Shown here piece by piece: positions 283 through 10,465 of a DNA stretch of 64,000 nt. A program made the translations under genes and the position numbers. The stretch's first letter is position 1. Each line of letters opens with the position of its first letter. The notes below the pieces were generated by a model that was not told the DNA's origin, ran no database searches, and saw nothing but the letters and a program-made list of their open reading frames with translations. The DNA comes from Bacillota bacterium (lineage in GTDB: Bacteria; Bacillota; Clostridia; Lachnospirales; Lachnospiraceae): the NCBI GenBank assembly GCA_023395555.1, contig JAEWYQ010000003.1, positions 1 through 64,000 of the forward strand. The letters are read 5' to 3'.

Positions 283-720
283 TCAATTCTCCCGGAAATT
301 ATCCGTGATATCTTTATCGTGCTGTAAAGCTTCTTCTGCCCCTTCCGTTGCATGGGCGGGGGAATAGCCGGAATATACCATCAAGTGAGGCTTATTGCAT
401 CTTATATATTCCATTTCAAGGACAGTGTCAACCGTATGCCTGCCTTTATCGTCAATGGAGCGATATTTATGCAGGTGGGATTGTTCCTGGCGCGTGATTG
501 AACCGGAGGGTTGAGGATTTTCATCCCACCCCATGAGGTAAGCAGGAGAGCATTGCAGCGCGTCTGCCAATAGCTTTATTTTATCATGCCTGACATTTTT
601 AATCTCTCCGCTTTCGTATCTTTGTACTGTAGGAGTACTTACGCCTATTAATTTTGCTAACTCGTCCATTGTCATATCTAATATGGTCCGTCTATGTTTA
701 ATCATATCCTTGAATTCCAA
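283..720 (-). CDS. XRE-family (Cro/CI-type) transcriptional regulator
   Basis: A 145-residue protein with an N-terminal helix-turn-helix at about residues 6-65, matching the XRE/lambda-repressor fold (DELAKLIGVSTPTVQRYESG is the HTH core, followed by the usual A-x-YLMGW end of the domain). The C-terminal 75 residues have no recognisable domain and no LexA-type protease signature, so it is not a self-cleaving CI repressor. The start follows a weak ribosome site. Upstream, reading the minus strand, a TTGCGA/TATTAT promoter with 17-bp spacing overlaps inverted repeats that could be its own operator. Role: probably autoregulation plus control of a neighbouring accessory gene. The family call is firm; the target is unknown. 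Confidence 0.85.
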   Translation of the reverse strand: MEFKDMIKHRRTILDMTMDELAKLIGVSTPTVQRYESGEIKNVRHDKIKLLADALQCSPAYLMGWDENPQPSGSITRQEQSHLHKYRSIDDKGRHTVDTVLEMEYIRCNKPHLMVYSGYSPAHATEGAEEALQHDKDITDNFREN

Positions 721-1416: not shown

Positions 1417-4400
1417 TTGAAGGATAAGATAGAGCGTTTTGCAAGAGGAGAATTGGAATATGAGCAGCCGGTGCTTTGTCTGTCAGAGGGGGAGATCATA
1501 GCAGACGGAGGGCAGTCCGTTCTGTCGTCCATCAGCATTACGGTGGAGGCAGGGAAGAGCTGTGAGGGCAGCTTTACTGTCAGCAACCACATGGGAAGCT
1601 GTGTGGAGGGACAGGTCTATTCCTCCAACCGCCTGCTGCAGATCAGGGAGCCTTCCTTCCGGGGAGAGTGCTGTGTTGTGAACTATTCTTTTCAGGCGGC
1701 ATATCGGAAGGCGGGTGAAACGCTGCAGGGAGAGATCGCAGTGGTAAGTGATTGCGGTGAGGCGGTCATTCCCTTTACCGTTCAGGTAGAGCAGGCTCAT
1801 GTGATGACCTCTCTGGGGAAGATCAAGGATTTATTTCTGTTTGCCAACCTGGCCCGGGCGGACTGGGCGGAGGCGAAGAAGGTGTTTCGCGGGGAGGAGT
1901 TTGAACGGGTTTTTCTAAGTAATGAGGAACGTTACCGTTATCTGTACCGCAATCTGATTAAAAGCAGTTCTGCCAGTCAGGCCTTAGAGGAATTTCTGAT
2001 CGCGATCCACAAAAAAAATGTGCTCCGGCTGGAAGTTGACCGCACCCGGCTAGAATATACGGTAACCGGGGAGGAAATCAGCGATAAGGTGGTTCTCACA
2101 AGGAACCATTGGGGATATGCCGAAATCAAGGTGAGCACTACCGCACCTTTTCTTAAATTGGAACAGAAACTATTATGGGCGGACCGCTTTACCGGCAGCA
2201 CCCATCCTATTTCCTTCACCATAGATCCGGGTAAGCTGCGCCCGGGGAAGCACTACGGACAGATCGTGATACGGTGTATATACCAGACCATCCTTGTGGA
2301 TGTAATATGCCGGTGTCCCGGTACCGGCCGGCAGGAGAGCGAATCCCGGCATGATGTGCCGCATACGATGGATATCGGCGGACATGGTACAGGTATATCA
2401 AAGAGCAGGAGGCTGGAAGCCGGGTTTATGGAGAGCTATCTGGACTTTCGCCTGAACCGGACCGGGGCGGAACGGTATGCAGAGAAGCTCCAGAGTATTC
2501 TTAGAGAGCTTCCGGACCGGCCGGACAGTCAGGTGAAGAATTTGATCAAGGTGCATCTGGCAATGGTATCAGGCAGAAGAAAGCTGGCAAAGGAACTGCT
2601 GGAGATCCTTTGGAGGGAAGAGAGCCAAGGGAAAAGCACCCTTGAGAAGGAACGTTTCGGGAGAAGTGTACCGGAAAAGAAGCATCCCGGAAGGAATATT
2701 CAGGTAAAGAACGGGCAAAAGGGAGATATTCCGGAACAGAGCAAAACGGAAAGGGAGAGCTTTTGGAAGGGAAGCCCGGCGCTGGAGGAATGTGCGCATT
2801 TATATTTGGAATGTCTGTATTCCAGGGATGAGGCTGCGATCAGTGAGGCAGTGGGACGGATACGGCGCTGCTATGAGAATGGGAACAGGGATTGGCGGAT
2901 ACTTTGGTTTCTTCTTAATCTTGACAGCAGCTATAATAAATTCCCGGGCAATAAGCTGGCGGATATCAGGGAGCAGTATGAGCTGGGCTGCCGCAGTCCT
3001 ATCTTGTATTATGAAGCGGTCTGTCTTTTGAATAAAGAGCCGGTGCTGCTCCGGGAGCTGGATGATTTTGAGATTCATATAGTAAATTACGGAATCCGGA
3101 ACCATATTCTTGCGAAGGAGCTGGCGCGCCAATTCATCTATCTGGCGGGCAGGAGAAAGACCTGGCACCCGGTGCTTTTTGGCTCGTTAACCAGACTATA
3201 TCGGGAATATGCGGATAACGACACCCTGTCCGCAATCTGCAGCCTTTTAATTAAAGGGATGAGGAGGGCGGAGAAATATTTTGAATGGTTTCGGCTGGGT
3301 GTGGAAGCACAGCTTCGAATCACGGAGCTGTATGAATATTATATGCACTGCGTCAGCTATGACCGTGAGGAAATGATCTCACAGCCGGTGCTGCTGTATT
3401 TTATCTATAACAGCAATCTGAATGACCGGAAGAAGGCATATCTGTATGCCAATATTATCCGATACAAGGACCGGAATGAGATGATTTACCGGAGCTATCA
3501 AAAACGGATGGAGATATTTGCAGCAGAGATGCTGAAGGCCCATCAGATCAACAAGGATCTGGCGGCGCTGTACCAGGAGTTTTATGCGGACCGCGAGCCC
3601 GGTGCCCAGCTCTGCGGGCATCTGCCCTATGTGATGTACCGGCAGGAGTTCTATTGTGATAATCCCAATATTGAAAGTGTCAAGGTGGTACATCGGGAGC
3701 TGGCTGCAGAGGAAACCTATCCCCTGGTAAAGGGCAGGGCCCAGATAGACATTTTCACAAAACAGGCACAGATTATGCTGGTGGACGGGGGAGGCAACCG
3801 TTATCTGGAATCGATCCCTTATAAGATCACGCCCTGCCTGAACCCGGAAGACTACGAGAGCCGCTGCCTGGAACACAGCGGGCATCCCATGCTTTTGCTC
3901 CATCTCTTTGACCGTTACCAGAGACATCGGATTATGAACCCGGCGGCGGCGGAGCTGCGCAAGCGGGTGCTGCTGGTGGAGGGACTGACCGATGAATACG
4001 CTGCGGAATGCCAGCAGGCATTGATCGAGTATTATTATGAAAATTACAACGATGAGCTTCTGGAACATTATCTGAAGCTGCTTGACTTACGTCGCCTTAA
4101 GCCTGCGGAGAGGCCAAAGTATCTGGAATTCATGGCGGTCAGAAGACTTTATGACCATGCCCTGGCTGCCCTGGAGACATTCGGATTTGACGAAATTGCG
4201 CTGAATCGCCTGGTGAAGCTGCTGTCCGGGTGGATGCTGACCCCGGAGGCAGACCATCACAATGAGTTGATGGTACAGCTTTGCCGCTATGTTTATATCC
4301 AGGAAAAATATGATGAGAAGATTCTGATGTATCTGCTTCGGTACTATGAGGGACCGGAAAGAGAGATGCTGAAGCTCTGGAGGACGGCGGGGAGCTTCGA

Positions 4401-5208
4401 GCTGGAGGCTCATTTGTTAGAGGAGCGCCTGCTGGCCAGGATGCTCTATACCCGGAGCGATGACCCGGACAGCTTCCCGGTCTTTACACAGTATTACAAG
4501 GAGGCCACAAATCGTACGCTGGTGCGGGCTTATCTTACTTATCATGCATACCGGTATTTGGTGCGGGAGCAGGAGCTTCCCGGGGAGCTGTTCCCGATTA
4601 TGAAACGGGAGCTGAATTACGAGGAGAATGAAATATGCCTTCTTGCCTGGCTGAAGCATAATGTATCCAACCGGGAGCTTACCGGGAGCGAACTGGCCTT
4701 TGCGGAATATCAGATTGACCGGCTGGGGAGGAAAGAACTTCTCCTGCCCTTCCTTGCAGGATACGGAGACCGGATGGCGCTGCCGGGCAAGCTTCGGGAT
4801 AAATGCTGTATTACCCATATTGCGGATCCGGGAAGCCGGGTATACATTCACTACCGCCTGATAAAGCAGGAGGAACATACGTTGGCGGCGAATGAGTTTA
4901 TAACACAGCGTATGACCAATGTACTCCTGGGCATCCATGTAAAGGAGCTGGTTCTCTTTCATCACGAAACCATAGAGTATTACATAACAGAAGAATATGA
5001 GGGGAAGGAAACGTCCACGGAAATGATATATGCCCGGTACGAATGTGCCATGCCCATGGCCGGAGATACAAAATATAATCAAATCAACCGGATGCGGACG
5101 GCAATAGAGCAGGGAGACGGCAATGCCCTGCTGGAGGAAATGGAGTCTTATATACGCAAGGAATATCTGGCCTCCGCCTGTTTTGAATGTATTGGAGCAA
5201 AGAGCTGA
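1417..5208 (+). CDS. DUF5717-family giant helical-repeat protein
   Basis: A 1,263-residue cytoplasmic protein with no signal peptide. It begins at TTG 1417; an upstream GTG in another frame meets a stop at once, and a GGGG/GGAG site precedes the TTG. Residues about 25-130 look like beta-sandwich modules (alternating strands around a GSFTVSNHMGS segment); a second such module follows near 230-300. The rest is mostly alpha-helical with many Leu/Tyr/Arg-rich repeats resembling TPR-like solenoids. A charged low-complexity insert lies near residues 405-455. I recognise it as the DUF5717 family of Lachnospiraceae, which has no assigned function. It is the first gene of a four-gene set with the Hsp70-like protein at 5283, suggesting that they act together. 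The size and solenoid suggest a scaffold; this is inference. Confidence 0.8.
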   Translation: MKDKIERFARGELEYEQPVLCLSEGEIIADGGQSVLSSISITVEAGKSCEGSFTVSNHMGSCVEGQVYSSNRLLQIREPSFRGECCVVNYSFQAAYRKAGETLQGEIAVVSDCGEAVIPFTVQVEQAHVMTSLGKIKDLFLFANLARADWAEAKKVFRGEEFERVFLSNEERYRYLYRNLIKSSSASQALEEFLIAIHKKNVLRLEVDRTRLEYTVTGEEISDKVVLTRNHWGYAEIKVSTTAPFLKLEQKLLWADRFTGSTHPISFTIDPGKLRPGKHYGQIVIRCIYQTILVDVICRCPGTGRQESESRHDVPHTMDIGGHGTGISKSRRLEAGFMESYLDFRLNRTGAERYAEKLQSILRELPDRPDSQVKNLIKVHLAMVSGRRKLAKELLEILWREESQGKSTLEKERFGRSVPEKKHPGRNIQVKNGQKGDIPEQSKTERESFWKGSPALEECAHLYLECLYSRDEAAISEAVGRIRRCYENGNRDWRILWFLLNLDSSYNKFPGNKLADIREQYELGCRSPILYYEAVCLLNKEPVLLRELDDFEIHIVNYGIRNHILAKELARQFIYLAGRRKTWHPVLFGSLTRLYREYADNDTLSAICSLLIKGMRRAEKYFEWFRLGVEAQLRITELYEYYMHCVSYDREEMISQPVLLYFIYNSNLNDRKKAYLYANIIRYKDRNEMIYRSYQKRMEIFAAEMLKAHQINKDLAALYQEFYADREPGAQLCGHLPYVMYRQEFYCDNPNIESVKVVHRELAAEETYPLVKGRAQIDIFTKQAQIMLVDGGGNRYLESIPYKITPCLNPEDYESRCLEHSGHPMLLLHLFDRYQRHRIMNPAAAELRKRVLLVEGLTDEYAAECQQALIEYYYENYNDELLEHYLKLLDLRRLKPAERPKYLEFMAVRRLYDHALAALETFGFDEIALNRLVKLLSGWMLTPEADHHNELMVQLCRYVYIQEKYDEKILMYLLRYYEGPEREMLKLWRTAGSFELEAHLLEERLLARMLYTRSDDPDSFPVFTQYYKEATNRTLVRAYLTYHAYRYLVREQELPGELFPIMKRELNYEENEICLLAWLKHNVSNRELTGSELAFAEYQIDRLGRKELLLPFLAGYGDRMALPGKLRDKCCITHIADPGSRVYIHYRLIKQEEHTLAANEFITQRMTNVLLGIHVKELVLFHHETIEYYITEEYEGKETSTEMIYARYECAMPMAGDTKYNQINRMRTAIEQGDGNALLEEMESYIRKEYLASACFECIGAKS

Positions 5209-5282
5209 GATTTTACAGGCACGGACTGTCCGGCTATTGTGCATGTGCCTGCAATAAGAGCGGTTGAAGGGGGTAGATCGGT

Positions 5283-6557
5283 ATGGAAACCGCCAGAAAA
5301 TTGTTTGTGGGTTATGATTTGTGTGATGATTTTTCACAGGTTAGCTGCTATAGTTACAAATCCCTTGAACCGGTTCCGATTAGCATCAGGAACGGGCAGG
5401 AGCTGATTCCCACCCTGTTATGCGCTCAGGCGGAGACAGGACAGTGGCTGTTTGGTGAGGAAGCCCTTGCCTGCGGTACGAAGGACGGGAGTGTGCTGAT
5501 TGATCATCTTCTGGAGAAGCTGGCAGGGGGAACACAGGTGGAGGTGTTCGGTCACAGCTATTCTCCTGTGGAGCTGATGGGAAAGTATTTCCGAAGGACG
5601 CTGAAGCTGATCAAGGAGCATTTTCCGGTGGAGCCGATTGTACAGATGGTGGTTACCGTCCGTAACACACAGCCGGCGCTGACGGAAGGCATATATGCCG
5701 CCCTGGAACTGCTGGGGCTGGGGAAGGACCGTGTTACGGTAATGAACCATGCGGGTGCATATTTATATTATGTATTAAGCCAGGACAGAAGCCTCTGGGT
5801 GAATGATGTGGGCCTGTTTGACTTCAGCGAGGAAGGGATGCTCTATTACCAGATCCGGCTGAATCGCAGGAACAGGCCGATGATCGCGAGGATTGAAAAG
5901 ACGGACTGCAGTGACACTTTGAAGGATATGATGCCGGAGAAGCAGGACGGGACAGGGAAGCAGCAGGCTTATGTATTCGAGACATTGGCCAGTTCCCTGC
6001 TGTATAAGCAGCTGGTAACCACCCTGTATTTTACCGGAACGGGCTTTCAGGGGAGCTGGGCGATGGGGGCAATAGAACGGCTCTGTGCAGGGAGACGGGC
6101 GTTTCTGGGGCAGAATCTATTTACCAAAGGGGCCTGTTACGCTGCCAAAGAGTTGGCCGAGCATACGCTGGAAGAATTCATCCTGCTGCACGATGATATG
6201 GTGGTAAGCGATATCGGAGTGCGGGTTTACAAAGACACCAGATTTCAGGAGCTTGTGCTGGCGGAGGCAGGGACAATCTGGTATGAAATAGATAGCGGCA
6301 TCGAAGTCATTGTTGAGGGCAGCCCGGAGGGGGAGGCAGAGCTGGAGATAATCCGAAGAAATATCATAACCAGGGATGTGCTGCGGGAGAAGCTGCACCT
6401 GACCGGACTTCCCAGAAGGCCGGACCGGATGACCCGGCTGGAGATCAGGCTGAGCTGTAAGGACAGATCCACCGGAACAATTGCAGTGAAGGATCTGGGA
6501 TTTGGCGAGTTCTATCCGGAGACCGGACAGGTTACGGAATTTACAATAGAGTTGTGA
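5283..6557 (+). CDS. DUF5716-family protein, degenerate Hsp70/actin-like ATPase fold
   Basis: A 424-residue protein with a GAAGGGGG ribosome site before ATG 5283. The layout follows the Hsp70 nucleotide-binding domain. GYDLCDDFSQVS near residue 10 sits where phosphate-1 (DLGTTNS) would be; LIPTLL and FGEEA follow as in DnaK; an AALELLGL/NHAGAYLYYV segment matches the connector; DFSEEG stands in for the phosphate-2 DLGGGT; and a final FTKGACYAA helix matches the adenosine side. A beta-rich C-terminus (about 300-424) could be a substrate-binding-like domain. The glycine-rich phosphate loops are not canonical, so ATP hydrolysis is doubtful. It probably belongs to DUF5716, which I recall occurring beside DUF5717. 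Its role as a pseudo-chaperone or scaffold is inference. Confidence 0.75.
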   Translation: METARKLFVGYDLCDDFSQVSCYSYKSLEPVPISIRNGQELIPTLLCAQAETGQWLFGEEALACGTKDGSVLIDHLLEKLAGGTQVEVFGHSYSPVELMGKYFRRTLKLIKEHFPVEPIVQMVVTVRNTQPALTEGIYAALELLGLGKDRVTVMNHAGAYLYYVLSQDRSLWVNDVGLFDFSEEGMLYYQIRLNRRNRPMIARIEKTDCSDTLKDMMPEKQDGTGKQQAYVFETLASSLLYKQLVTTLYFTGTGFQGSWAMGAIERLCAGRRAFLGQNLFTKGACYAAKELAEHTLEEFILLHDDMVVSDIGVRVYKDTRFQELVLAEAGTIWYEIDSGIEVIVEGSPEGEAELEIIRRNIITRDVLREKLHLTGLPRRPDRMTRLEIRLSCKDRSTGTIAVKDLGFGEFYPETGQVTEFTIEL

Positions 6558-6575
6558 CAAAAGGGGTGAGAATGC

Positions 6576-7427
6576 GTGGGCAAGCTGATATTATGCAGCG
6601 GAGCAAGAACGGCGCGGCCGTATACTTTTCCGGTAAGCGGAATCCGGGTATATTCCATGGAAGAACTCTGCTATTACCTGTTTCACCATGTCCATCTGAT
6701 GGAAGAGGACGTGATCCGGGAGGAGCTGATCGATTGGATCCAAACGGAGTTAAAGCTCCCGGAACGGGCGGAAAAGCTGAGAAAATTAAAGGAGAAGAAA
6801 GCGGATATCAAGACCCTGGTCACAGTGGTTCTCTGCAGCGCCGATTATTATACAGAAAATGAGATTAAGAGCTTATTGAAGCTTTTGGACGAGACAGCCT
6901 CCCTGTCCAGAATTAAGAAAAGCAGCCTGAAGGCAAAGCATTACCTGGATAAACAGCAGTACCGGGAAGCGGCACAAGAGTATGAAGAACTGCTGGCAGA
7001 TGAGGAGGCGAAAGAATTCACGCCGGAGGAATATGGGGATCTTCTGCACAATCTGGCCGTAGCCAGACTCCATACCATCGGCTTTGAGGCAGCAGCCGGA
7101 CTCTTCGAACAGGCCTATGTGCGTAACCGGAGGGAAGAGACGCTGCGCCAGTATCTGACCGTACTTAGAATCCTGGGTTGGGAAGGGCAATGCGGGAATA
7201 TGCAGGAGGAATACCGGGATAAACTGGAGGAATACCAGGTGGAAGAAGAACTGCGCGGAAAAGTAGAGGCTGAGCTGGTCGGCTGGCAGGAGGAGGCGGA
7301 GGCCTGCTCTGCCATGGAAGAGCTCCGAAAGCTGGAGAGACTGATGCGGCAGGGCCGGATGGAGGAATATTACCGCCGTGCGGAGGAAATGCTGGAGGAC
7401 TGGATGGGAAGTTTGCGCCAGATATGA
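6576..7427 (+). CDS. TPR-like helical protein of the DUF5716/5717 operon
   Basis: A 283-residue soluble protein starting at GTG 6576, eight bases after an AAGGGGTGAG ribosome site and 18 bases past the upstream stop. An alternative ATG at 6572 is in another frame. Residues 1-100 are a compact helical domain beginning with a short Cys-Ser-Gly-Ala segment. Residues about 110-200 hold tetratricopeptide-like helices (YLDKQQYREAAQEYEELL, then LLHNLAVARLH and a GLFEQAY helix). The last 80 residues are highly charged and coiled-coil-like. No catalytic motif is seen. The tight spacing places it firmly in the operon. The TPR part suggests an adaptor for the other three products; exact function is unknown. 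Confidence 0.75.
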   Translation: MGKLILCSGARTARPYTFPVSGIRVYSMEELCYYLFHHVHLMEEDVIREELIDWIQTELKLPERAEKLRKLKEKKADIKTLVTVVLCSADYYTENEIKSLLKLLDETASLSRIKKSSLKAKHYLDKQQYREAAQEYEELLADEEAKEFTPEEYGDLLHNLAVARLHTIGFEAAAGLFEQAYVRNRREETLRQYLTVLRILGWEGQCGNMQEEYRDKLEEYQVEEELRGKVEAELVGWQEEAEACSAMEELRKLERLMRQGRMEEYYRRAEEMLEDWMGSLRQI

Positions 7428-7544
7428 CTGCCGGCCCTATGCGGCCCTATGGCGGCAGGCAGGAACCTGCAAAAGATCCTACTTATTAAGGCCTATTTAC
7501 TGTTTGAATAGGTCATCAAAAAGTGAAAGGGCACGTATATAAGA

Positions 7545-8753
7545 ATGAAATTATTTCGCATATTTTCAAAAAAGAAAAAGCAGACGGCAGAGATACTGCC
7601 GCAGGAAGTCCATGAGGAAGCAGTGCCTCACTCCCCGGAGAAGAAAAACAGGGAGGTCAGAAAGCCGGCCAAGCTGGGATCCCTTGCGGAGCAGATAGGA
7701 TACATAAAGGAGAACTGCGATCTGATTCAGGAAAGTGACCGGCGGGTAGCAGAGGCTAAGGTGGAATATCAGGCGGTAACCTCCTATTTGACGGACATAC
7801 AGAAGATTGACCAGATTCCCATGGAGCAGAGGGAAGAACTGGAGAATGCCGCCCGCAATATTATTAATCTCAGCAGGGAGCGCAGCAAGCTCCAGCACAA
7901 GAGCCCTCTCCTTTCCGAGCGTCAGTATCGGCTGTATGAGGGTTATGAGATGCAGATTCCAAAGGATTTGAAGGAGTTAAGGGAAAGCGAGGAATACCAG
8001 CAGGTAATCCAGCAGGATATCGCTCATCTGGAGGAGGAGAGAAGGACGCTGAACCGGGAGGAGAAGGACATTATCAGCAGACAGTCCTTTCTCAAGGGGA
8101 TTGCTGTTACCACCAGTATCATTGTTATTCTGCTTTTCCTGGTATTCGCCCTCCTGTCGAATTACTCCAAGGGCGACTTCACAATTCCGTTTCTGATGAC
8201 CGTGCTCATGGGAATGGTCTCGGCTCTTTACATCTTTATGGAAGCCAGAAAGAATTCGGGGAACGTCCAACTGGTGCAGATGAAGCAGAACCGCCAGATC
8301 ATGCTGATGAACAAGGTGAAGATCAAATCCGTCAATAACCGGAGCTATCTGGATTATACCTATGAGAAATACATGGTAGAAAGCTATTCCCAGTTGAAAA
8401 CTGCCTGGGAGGAATACGTGCGGATGAAGGATGAAGAGAGAAGGTATCAGAGCAACACGGAGCTGCTGGAGTTCTCCCATAATGAATTAATCGATGCCTT
8501 GAAGGAATTCGGTGTGGTGGACTGTGAAGTCTGGATCTATCAGCCCTCCGCTATTCTTGATCCCAAGGAGATGGTGGAGGTGCGCCATCGTCTCAATGTC
8601 CGCAGGCAGAAGCTGCGCGAGGGAATGGAGACCAATATCCGACTGCGGGAGGAAGCGCTGGCCGCAATCCAGCAGACGATGAAGAGCTATCCCGATTGCG
8701 GCGAGGAGGCCCGAAAGCTGCTGCAGCGCTGCGGAATCAATCAGACTGAATAA
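7545..8753 (+). CDS. Coiled-coil membrane protein with two transmembrane helices
   Basis: A 402-residue protein. A basic start (FSKKKKQ) leads into a long charged coiled coil at about 45-180. Two hydrophobic helices follow at about 186-206 and 213-232, joined by a short NYSKGDF loop, and a second coiled coil runs to the end. Both long arms should therefore be cytoplasmic, with a tiny external hairpin. No enzyme motif is visible. The 117-base gap from the previous gene contains two small hairpins but no convincing promoter, so it may still be read with the operon. It would be the natural membrane anchor for the DUF5717/DUF5716/TPR set; this is inference from context. Confidence 0.7.
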   Translation: MKLFRIFSKKKKQTAEILPQEVHEEAVPHSPEKKNREVRKPAKLGSLAEQIGYIKENCDLIQESDRRVAEAKVEYQAVTSYLTDIQKIDQIPMEQREELENAARNIINLSRERSKLQHKSPLLSERQYRLYEGYEMQIPKDLKELRESEEYQQVIQQDIAHLEEERRTLNREEKDIISRQSFLKGIAVTTSIIVILLFLVFALLSNYSKGDFTIPFLMTVLMGMVSALYIFMEARKNSGNVQLVQMKQNRQIMLMNKVKIKSVNNRSYLDYTYEKYMVESYSQLKTAWEEYVRMKDEERRYQSNTELLEFSHNELIDALKEFGVVDCEVWIYQPSAILDPKEMVEVRHRLNVRRQKLREGMETNIRLREEALAAIQQTMKSYPDCGEEARKLLQRCGINQTE

Positions 8754-8865: not shown

Positions 8866-9273
8866 ATGGAGATTAAAAATTTGTTATCCACAAAAGAAGA
8901 AGAGCTGATGGAGCTGCTATGGGAAAGTGATAAGCCTCTGACAAGTGTCGAGATAATGAAAATCCCAAATATGTCAGAATGGAATGAGACAAACTTGTAT
9001 CGGACGCTAAATTCCTTGCTGGGTAAGAAATTAATCCAAGTATGCGGTATGGAGCAGTATAAGACGCAATATGCAAGGCAATTCGAGCCGGCCCTTACCA
9101 GGGAAGAATACGCGGTGAGATTCTTAACGGACCGCGGGTTGAAGAAGAGTTCAATTGCTAAAATAGCTATGGCGTTGGTAAAAGCACCGGAAGGAGATGA
9201 AGAAGAGGAAACCGATGAATTGATCGAACAGTTGGAGTCAATCATCGAGGAATTACGCAAAGATAAGAGGTAA
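8866..9273 (+). CDS. BlaI/MecI/CopY-family transcriptional repressor
   Basis: A 135-residue winged-helix protein, normal for the family (about 120-140). The DNA-binding part covers residues 8-80 (STKEEELMELLWES, then the recognition helix in NETNLYRTLNSLL and a wing around GMEQYKTQYAR). The acidic C-terminal third forms the dimer helices. It is followed four bases later by an M56 protease gene, the usual sensor partner whose signalling leads to cleavage of the repressor. No beta-lactamase or PBP2a gene is present here. Instead the third gene of the operon encodes a small exported peptide, which is the probable output. Confidence 0.9.
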   Translation: MEIKNLLSTKEEELMELLWESDKPLTSVEIMKIPNMSEWNETNLYRTLNSLLGKKLIQVCGMEQYKTQYARQFEPALTREEYAVRFLTDRGLKKSSIAKIAMALVKAPEGDEEEETDELIEQLESIIEELRKDKR

Positions 9274-9277
9274 TAGG

Positions 9278-10465
9278 ATGCAGATAACTTTTTTCTCTTT
9301 TAGTATGGCCGTTCTATGGAGCAGTTTGTTAATTACAATGATATATTTATTCCGGAAGAATTACCTGTCTATTCAATTTTACAGTATATCCGGTTTATTA
9401 TTGCTGTATGTGTTTTGCTTAATTAGGATCGTCCTGCCATTAGAGGTTCCTTTTACAAAAGTCGTGGTATCAAAGTATGGATACAATCAGATGGTTCATT
9501 TCTTTCAGATGAGCTTATGGGAAGGAAACGGATATCATCTCAAGGTTGGAACATTGCTTTTTGGACTCTGGGCTATAGGTGCTGTTATAAAGGTCCTGCG
9601 GTACGCTTACTATTACATTAGATCAACCAGAGAAATAAAGAGATTTGAGAAAAAGACGGACTTAAATACGCAAACCGTTATGGATAAGATTCTTCAAGAC
9701 AGAGGAGAGCATATAAGGCCTGCAGTTCTGGTCAGTTCGTCCATTCATGTTCCAATGGGAGTCGGAATTTTTAAGAAGTATATTCTGCTGCCGGACAAAG
9801 ACTACACGGATCGGGAATTATATCATATATTGCTGCATGAATATACGCATTTGCTTCATGGCGATTTAGTTATTAAGATGTTGATAGATCTAATATGCTG
9901 TATTTATTGGTGGAATCCTATTGTATATTTGCTTCGTAAGGATTTGGGACAAACACTGGAGATCAAATGTGATCTGGAAGTAACACGGAATATGGGTAAT
10001 GGAGAAAAAGCGGATTACCTGGAAGTGATTGTTTCGGCCATAAGAGGAGCAAAAGTTCAAAAGGGGAAAGGTGATAAGCAGAAGGGCCTTGAAGTTGGTT
10101 ATGTAAATCTGTTCAATAGCAGTTTTTTAGATGTGAAAGAACGGTTTCAAGTTATATCAAGTTGTAAGGGAGCAAAGTTAGGGAAGAAAGCAAATATAAT
10201 TACATTTTTTGTGTTTTTAGTTGTATTGTTTTTCTCGTATTCATTTGTTGTTCAATCGAGATTTGAAGCGCCTGTAGAAGAAGTTGAGACAAACGAAAAT
10301 ATCCACATAATAAATTCATCTGGAATCATTATAATAAAAAGCGAAGACGGACATTATGAAATCATCATGGAGGACGGGAAGCGTAGCATAATTGATGAGG
10401 AAACGGCATTAAAGATGCAAGAAAGAGGATTTGAAATTATAGATTCAAAGGAGGAAATGGAATGA
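9278..10465 (+). CDS. M56-family (BlaR1/MecR1-like) membrane metalloprotease
   Basis: A 395-residue membrane protein. Hydrophobic helices lie near residues 5-25, 35-55, 90-110 and 305-325. The gluzincin motif HEYTH is at residues 187-191, with a downstream acidic region (LEIKCDLEVTRN) that supplies the third zinc ligand, as in BlaR1. The extracellular C-terminus after the last helix is only about 65 residues and is not a penicillin-binding domain, so it does not sense beta-lactams as BlaR1 does. The tail is acidic and lacks known domains. In BlaR1-like systems, ligand sensing activates the protease and leads to loss of the BlaI repressor. The ligand here is unknown. Its stop overlaps the next gene's start (ATGA). 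Confidence 0.88.
   Translation: MQITFFSFSMAVLWSSLLITMIYLFRKNYLSIQFYSISGLLLLYVFCLIRIVLPLEVPFTKVVVSKYGYNQMVHFFQMSLWEGNGYHLKVGTLLFGLWAIGAVIKVLRYAYYYIRSTREIKRFEKKTDLNTQTVMDKILQDRGEHIRPAVLVSSSIHVPMGVGIFKKYILLPDKDYTDRELYHILLHEYTHLLHGDLVIKMLIDLICCIYWWNPIVYLLRKDLGQTLEIKCDLEVTRNMGNGEKADYLEVIVSAIRGAKVQKGKGDKQKGLEVGYVNLFNSSFLDVKERFQVISSCKGAKLGKKANIITFFVFLVVLFFSYSFVVQSRFEAPVEEVETNENIHIINSSGIIIIKSEDGHYEIIMEDGKRSIIDEETALKMQERGFEIIDSKEEME

Follow-up and report, generated by a model that had tools for sequence, protein, structure and literature searches.

Ssz1 of the yeast ribosome-associated complex (RAC) lacks a lid, binds ATP without hydrolysing it, binds nascent chains weakly and, at the ribosome, has a J-domain protein as its partner (PMC7083937). 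Another arrangement is reported in PMC7159879 for the GAP1-N2 systems, in which an Hsp70, a GrpE and a protein combining a beta-sandwich with tetratricopeptide repeats (TPR) occur in one Firmicutes neighbourhood, some of these systems having a second Hsp70 without the peptide-binding domain. The Pfam families DUF5716 (PF18980) and DUF5717 (PF18983 and PF18984) carry descriptions without a function. Here we analyse a stretch of 64,000 nucleotides (the window; positions 1 to 64,000 of contig JAEWYQ010000003.1, assembly GCA_023395555.1, Lachnospiraceae) that holds a four-gene operon encoding members of both families, gene 1 (DUF5717) and gene 2 (DUF5716), followed by a TPR-like protein (gene 3) and a putative membrane protein (gene 4). 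A preliminary description of this sequence had proposed that the four proteins form one membrane-tethered, chaperone-like or scaffold complex, and the four consecutive open reading frames (ORFs) that it listed were confirmed in position and size, all on the forward strand. The operon is not described in the literature that we searched.

Compared with the canonical DnaK/GrpE system, gene 2 has the DnaK fold but lacks the ATPase motifs, the lid and most of the stretch between the phosphate-2 and adenosine motifs, which holds subdomain IIB. Operons of a second type, called expanded here as opposed to the reduced type of the window, resemble DnaK/GrpE in that three of their Hsp70s have intact motifs and a GrpE-domain protein is encoded as well. 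They differ in combining four Hsp70 paralogues with a TPR protein, a giant scaffold and, in some cases, a membrane hairpin; the operon is also additional to the canonical dnaK (12/12 reduced genomes searched). Ssz1 is the nearest worked-out analogue of gene 2, which is likewise lidless, without catalytic residues and equipped with a substrate beta domain, although the IIB stretch of gene 2 is shortened and the operon proteins scanned include no J-domain protein. The GAP1-N2 systems centre on a GTPase and GAP1; no match to either was found in the operon proteins scanned, and the extra Hsp70 considered here, gene 2, keeps its beta domain and loses the ATPase site. We extend the Pfam entries, of which genes 1 and 2 are members, by an Hsp70 identity, the operon context and an ancestral form of that operon.

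Gene 2 as a divergent Hsp70

Both Pfam assignments of the preliminary description are borne out above the curated cut-offs, with DUF5717_N (E 5.8e-269) and DUF5717 (8.2e-83) in gene 1 and DUF5716_C (2e-90) in gene 2. For gene 2, that description had recognized the layout of an Hsp70 nucleotide-binding domain with altered phosphate loops. The loops DLCDDFSQ and DFSEEG are indeed present where it placed them and the fold is of the Hsp70/actin type, but the protein is not a nucleotide-binding domain alone: the predicted DnaK fold extends from the nucleotide-binding domain (residues ~1-300) through a linker (~299-306) into a DnaK-like beta substrate domain (~307-424). This substrate domain was overlooked in the preliminary description, as was a larger ancestral operon in which a GrpE-domain protein accompanies three intact Hsp70s.

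The GTT and GGGT phosphate loops and the catalytic Glu were each found in none of 124 gene 2 relatives. There is no alpha-helical lid, both the protein and its model stopping at the beta domain, and the span from the phosphate-2 to the adenosine motif measures 59-77 residues in 124/124 reduced proteins against 142 in one DnaK. The window's gene 2 gave no match to PF00012 (HSP70) at E<=0.1; its expanded-operon homologue in locus L181 does match this family (1.4e-17). Among the most conserved positions are the adenosine-side TGxGF..W and KGAC motifs, and the DLGFG motif of the beta domain is near-invariant, with D404, G406 and G408 in 124/124. That gene 2 is a divergent Hsp70 without ATPase motifs is strongly supported, and the sequence suggests that it would function without an ATP cycle.

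The expanded operon

Genomes were searched in draws of 250 from the family (Lachnospiraceae by NCBI ranks, to which Herbinix hemicellulosilytica belongs; a large family that lives in gut and soil), 161 from the order, 291 from the class and 398 from the phylum. In the order draw 76/161 genomes matched gene 2, 18 of them strongly (E<1e-45) and 58 more weakly, most of the latter with two or three matches. Twenty expanded loci were fetched from these 76 genomes: a single strongly matching genome, G928, contributed one of them, and the other 19 came from genomes with weaker matches. All were picked from the listed better-scoring matches and longer contigs, and several are cut at their ends. Since none occurred in the family draw of 250, the genomes of the expanded type presumably belong to other families.

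The genes of the expanded operon lie on one strand in the order gene 1, Hsp70-A, X, the pseudo-Hsp70 D (equivalent to gene 2), Hsp70-B, Hsp70-C, the TPR protein (equivalent to gene 3) and gene 4, and the parts present are collinear in 20/20 loci, with other ORFs intervening in some (e.g., L173, L188, L189). D, B and X were found in all 20 loci and A and C in 18 each (A missing in L188 and L189, C in L182 and L188); gene 1 was found in 17/20, gene 3 in 15/20 and gene 4 in 4/20, some loci being cut. Wherever the N-terminus is available, GTT, K, E and GGGT are intact in A (17/17), B (20/20) and C (17/17), one A row and one C row without it being left out. In D, by contrast, GTT, GGGT and K are absent in 20/20, with Glu aligned in four. 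Protein X ends in a GrpE domain in 3/3 proteins scanned (E 3e-13, 5.4e-12 and 2.2e-9), and a second GrpE was present in 8/8 expanded genomes, within X in all eight. Its length varies: X of L181 has about 500 N-terminal residues without assignment, and X of L170 has 279 aa. Hsp70-C carries a VWA domain after the Hsp70 part, where the lid would be (3/3 scanned; Table 1).

Origin of the four-gene operon by reduction

In a tree rooted with DnaK and including 23 gene 2 rows, D and B are sister groups; the window's type forms one clade inside D with L170 adjoining. A constraint holding expanded D together was rejected by the approximately unbiased (AU) test (p-AU 6.45e-6; 16 of 20 D, 16 gene 2 and 9 B rows). 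Together with the loss of motifs in D beside intact A, B and C, these results argue that D was already degenerate while its three paralogues were present; and as the window's type is nested inside expanded D, the four-gene operon would have arisen by the loss of A, X, B and C. This reductive origin is strongly supported by the sequence comparisons. In L170, which comes from the intermediate genome G928, the homologues of Hsp70-C and gene 3 are each in two pieces, reflecting either decay or an assembly error.

The operon of the window's family no longer contains A, B, C or the GrpE-domain gene. Canonical dnaK was recovered in 12/12 reduced genomes searched for HSP70, and none of them yielded an additional Hsp70 that resembles A-C more than DnaK. 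Three of these genomes (L149, L150, L151) have a further long DnaK-like gene, presumably HscC-like. In a fourth (L161), a frame of 926 aa holds a weaker one. Each of the four is closer to DnaK than to A, B or C, the weakest case being L161 (112 vs 101 bits). Full-scoring grpE is likewise kept in 7/7 reduced genomes searched, none of which has a second GrpE over the cut-off; G054 gave one sub-threshold match of 20.8 bits.

IIB is a lobe of DnaK that is gripped by GrpE. The span from the phosphate-2 to the adenosine motif is 131-151 residues in 20/20 expanded D proteins, and gene 2 of the reduced type has lost some 70-75 residues there. Three features set the reduced type apart from the expanded one: its IIB stretch is shorter, the operon GrpE has been lost, and so have the active Hsp70s.

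The two types also have neighbours in common. A class I/II aminotransferase by Pfam, HisC-like by our own label, lies divergently upstream in 49/85 reduced loci with room, and valS lies downstream in 27/79; the former flanks 6/20 and the latter 2/20 expanded loci, seven in all, with both in L185. These common neighbours point to one ancestral locus.

Distribution and gene order

Gene 2 (DUF5716_C) was found in 244/250 family genomes, and in 10/291 of the class draw, 5/398 of the phylum draw and 0/14 control genomes. DUF5717 was present in the same 10 class genomes and gene 3 in nine of them; in the tenth (G206) gene 3 was recovered from the neighbourhood (L108, E 5e-26). Expanded-type loci, many in the order draw, did not occur among the matches of the class draw (10/291); the two draws seem to be stratified differently. 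Of the six family genomes in which gene 2 was not found, five also lack gene 1, and all six may be incomplete assemblies. A single DUF5716 match is the rule (239 positive family genomes). Two matches each were seen in G137, G145, G213, G235 and G256; G137 has two reduced operons, and in G145 gene 2 is in two pieces.

Gene order was compared in 90 fetched loci plus the window, the former fetched because gene 2 was present and picked by the analyst from the listed better-scoring matches and longer contigs. Genes 1 and 2 adjoin on one strand in 91/91 loci holding both (median gap 17 bp), genes 2 and 3 in 89/89 (12 bp; one cut and one fused locus left out) and genes 3 and 4 in 53/53 loci where gene 4 was found (18 bp). 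The four genes form an operon, their order being far beyond chance. One contig of the set, L021, is labelled Anaerolineaceae (Chloroflexota) and sits deep within the Herbinix-like clade of the tree; it is probably a mis-binned or mislabelled metagenome-assembled genome (MAG).

Gene 4 is an optional part of this operon. It occurs in 105/250 family genomes and was not found beside gene 3 in 35 of the 84 scorable rows of a tree (5/91 loci dropped for short, fused or missing genes) on which its presence changes at least six times. In 18/18 genomes lacking it in the operon and searched whole, it was found nowhere else, the search model (A2) being built from close relatives, which a very divergent gene 4 could escape. 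The idea of the preliminary description that the genes make up one system thus holds for genes 1-3, which are one conserved unit. Its expectation that genes 3 and 4 regularly occur beside the first pair is upheld by gene 3, which always adjoins gene 2 (89/89), and is partly contradicted by gene 4, which was found in no more than 105/250 family genomes.

Genes 1, 3 and 4 and the surroundings of the operon

Gene 1 had been described as a beta-plus-helical-repeat protein, and a solenoid with beta domains is also what the model of its Herbinix homologue displays (pLDDT 87.8, pTM 0.63; these are the predicted local distance difference test and template modelling scores), with fold matches as further evidence. 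The predicted N-terminal part consists of two immunoglobulin (Ig)-like beta domains of the MSP/PapD kind with a helical domain in between, followed by an alpha-solenoid, a small beta domain, a second alpha-solenoid, a beta domain and C-terminal helices. Gene 3 has no Pfam match above the cut-off (TPR_16, 15.1 bits vs 32.7). Seven of 38 members of its alignment match TPR_12 at E<=0.01, and its longer homologues in expanded operons match TPR_2 (5e-26 and 2.1e-11, 2/2 scanned), in line with the earlier TPR-like assignment. The two membrane helices proposed for gene 4 correspond to hydrophobic stretches at residues 180-210 and 212-234. A basic stretch after this pair (9 K/R and 3 D/E in 232-275) suggests that both ends of the protein are probably in the cytoplasm. 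In genes 1-3, no segment exceeded the hydrophobicity threshold used.

At the site of the relatives' divergent aminotransferase, the window has an XRE-type regulator upstream of gene 1. Between gene 4 and valS lies a pair encoding a BlaI-like repressor and a BlaR1-like peptidase, neither of which was matched in the other 110 loci compared.

Table 1. Positions of the operon genes and of other features in the window and in compared loci (L numbers)
Feature	Position	Strand	Description
Gene 1	window 1417-5208	+	1263 aa, TTG start; DUF5717, putative giant scaffold
Gene 2	window 5283-6557	+	424 aa; DUF5716, pseudo-Hsp70
Gene 3	window 6576-7427	+	283 aa; TPR-like, N-terminal ILCSG motif
Gene 4	window 7545-8753	+	402 aa; predicted two-helix membrane hairpin, long polar (coiled-coil-like) flanks; optional part
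XRE-type regulator	window 283-720	-	helix-turn-helix (HTH)
BlaI-like/BlaR1-like pair	window 8866-10465		Penicillinase_R repressor and M56 peptidase
Gene 1 homologue	L009:6413-9961		Herbinix protein used for the structure model
Fused genes 2 and 3	L014:5163-7289		708 aa, in frame
Protein X	L181:11870-13804		GrpE-domain protein
Hsp70-C with VWA domain	L181:6495-8573		unusual combination
Hsp70-C with VWA domain	L185:7046-9223		unusual combination
Hsp70-C with VWA domain	L186:7500-9590		unusual combination
Split Hsp70-C and gene 3 homologues	L170:4705-7884		two pieces each

Proposed function and alternatives

We propose that a multi-Hsp70 chaperone machine was pared down to the core encoded by this operon, and that the operon's products hold and position clients without ATP at or near the membrane, a reading to which we give even weight for and against. 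Gene 2 would need no ATP cycle; the gene 1 solenoid and gene 3 would dock on its degenerate nucleotide-binding domain, while its lidless beta domain may bind extended peptide segments weakly, like yeast Ssz1. Gene 1, with its Ig pair and solenoids, would be the scaffold, and gene 3 an adaptor toward clients or the housekeeping DnaK. Gene 4, where present, may anchor the assembly to the inner face of the membrane. Genes 1-3, with gene 4 where it occurs, would be expected as one physical complex, the most likely job of which would be ATP-independent holding and positioning of clients, possibly passing them on to the housekeeping DnaK.

Several observations weigh against this proposal. Nucleotide binding may persist despite the loss of the ATPase motifs, as the equivalent of D8 is kept in 114/124 gene 2 relatives and the adenosine-side glycines in 123/124 and 115/124. 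The isolated beta domain resembles DnaK only weakly (P 0.0032), and the match to DnaK is far poorer for gene 2 than for MreB (P 1.1e-23). The scan of the four window genes and of ten expanded-operon proteins detected no J-domain protein, the rest of the genome not having been searched. Tethering through gene 4 cannot be essential, because this gene was not found in over half of the family. Also, valS is absent within 5 kb downstream in 9/9 expanded loci with room, and the shared chromosomal place therefore rests on 7/20 expanded loci. On one MAG contig (L014) genes 2 and 3 are fused, by either a genuine event or an error in sequencing. Finally, the assembly could be purely structural, without any client.

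A structural role of this kind, in which gene 2 only joins gene 1 and gene 3 in a pseudo-actin-like manner and the assembly organises the membrane or a division site, is a less likely possibility. It fits the loss of the ATPase motifs in 124/124 relatives, the missing lid, the very large solenoid of gene 1 and the near-universal presence of gene 2 in the family, and the conserved TGxGF..W and KGAC motifs could be packing sites; the retained beta substrate domain with its near-invariant DLGFG speaks against it, however, and the three intact Hsp70s and GrpE-domain protein of the ancestor point to protein handling. It is rather unlikely that the complex acts as a regulatory co-chaperone, binding and tuning the housekeeping DnaK/GrpE in trans instead of clients. 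Hsp110 is a non-canonical Hsp70 that works with an active Hsp70. The same is true of Ssz1 (PMC7083937), and the TPR-like nature of gene 3 and the retention of canonical dnaK (12/12) and full-scoring grpE (7/7) in the reduced genomes searched would suit such a role, but linkage to dnaK/grpE was not seen and most of the lobe IIB stretch is missing from gene 2. Like kinds of parts, namely an Hsp70, a GrpE and a beta-sandwich (FNIII) and TPR protein, are found in Firmicutes in some of the GTPase-centred GAP1-N2 conflict systems (PMC7159879). Membership of the operon in these systems is nevertheless highly improbable and already disfavoured, given that no GTPase or GAP1 Pfam match was found in the same scanned proteins and that gene 2 occurs in 244/250 family genomes, with a single match in 239, unlike a patchy conflict system.

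Returning to the chaperone reading, we consider it slightly favoured that the order holds a hitherto undescribed chaperone assembly of four Hsp70s on a giant Ig-solenoid scaffold, served by a GrpE-domain exchange factor of its own. One family would have made it into an ATP-free machine when all active Hsp70s and the exchange factor were lost, with the scaffold, TPR protein and pseudo-Hsp70 left as a near-universal core whose functional heart would be a pseudo-chaperone that outlived its active paralogues.

Significance

Gene 2 is present in 244 of the 250 sampled genomes of a dominant gut family, and so near-universal and clade-restricted a gene set probably matters to the physiology of these bacteria. 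Comparing the expanded with the reduced operons amounts to a natural experiment that separates the parts of an Hsp70 machine that can be discarded (ATPases, exchange factor and IIB stretch) from those that are kept (scaffold, pseudo-Hsp70 and TPR protein). The role of an Hsp70 without ATP thereby becomes directly testable, and two DUF families gain a concrete identity.
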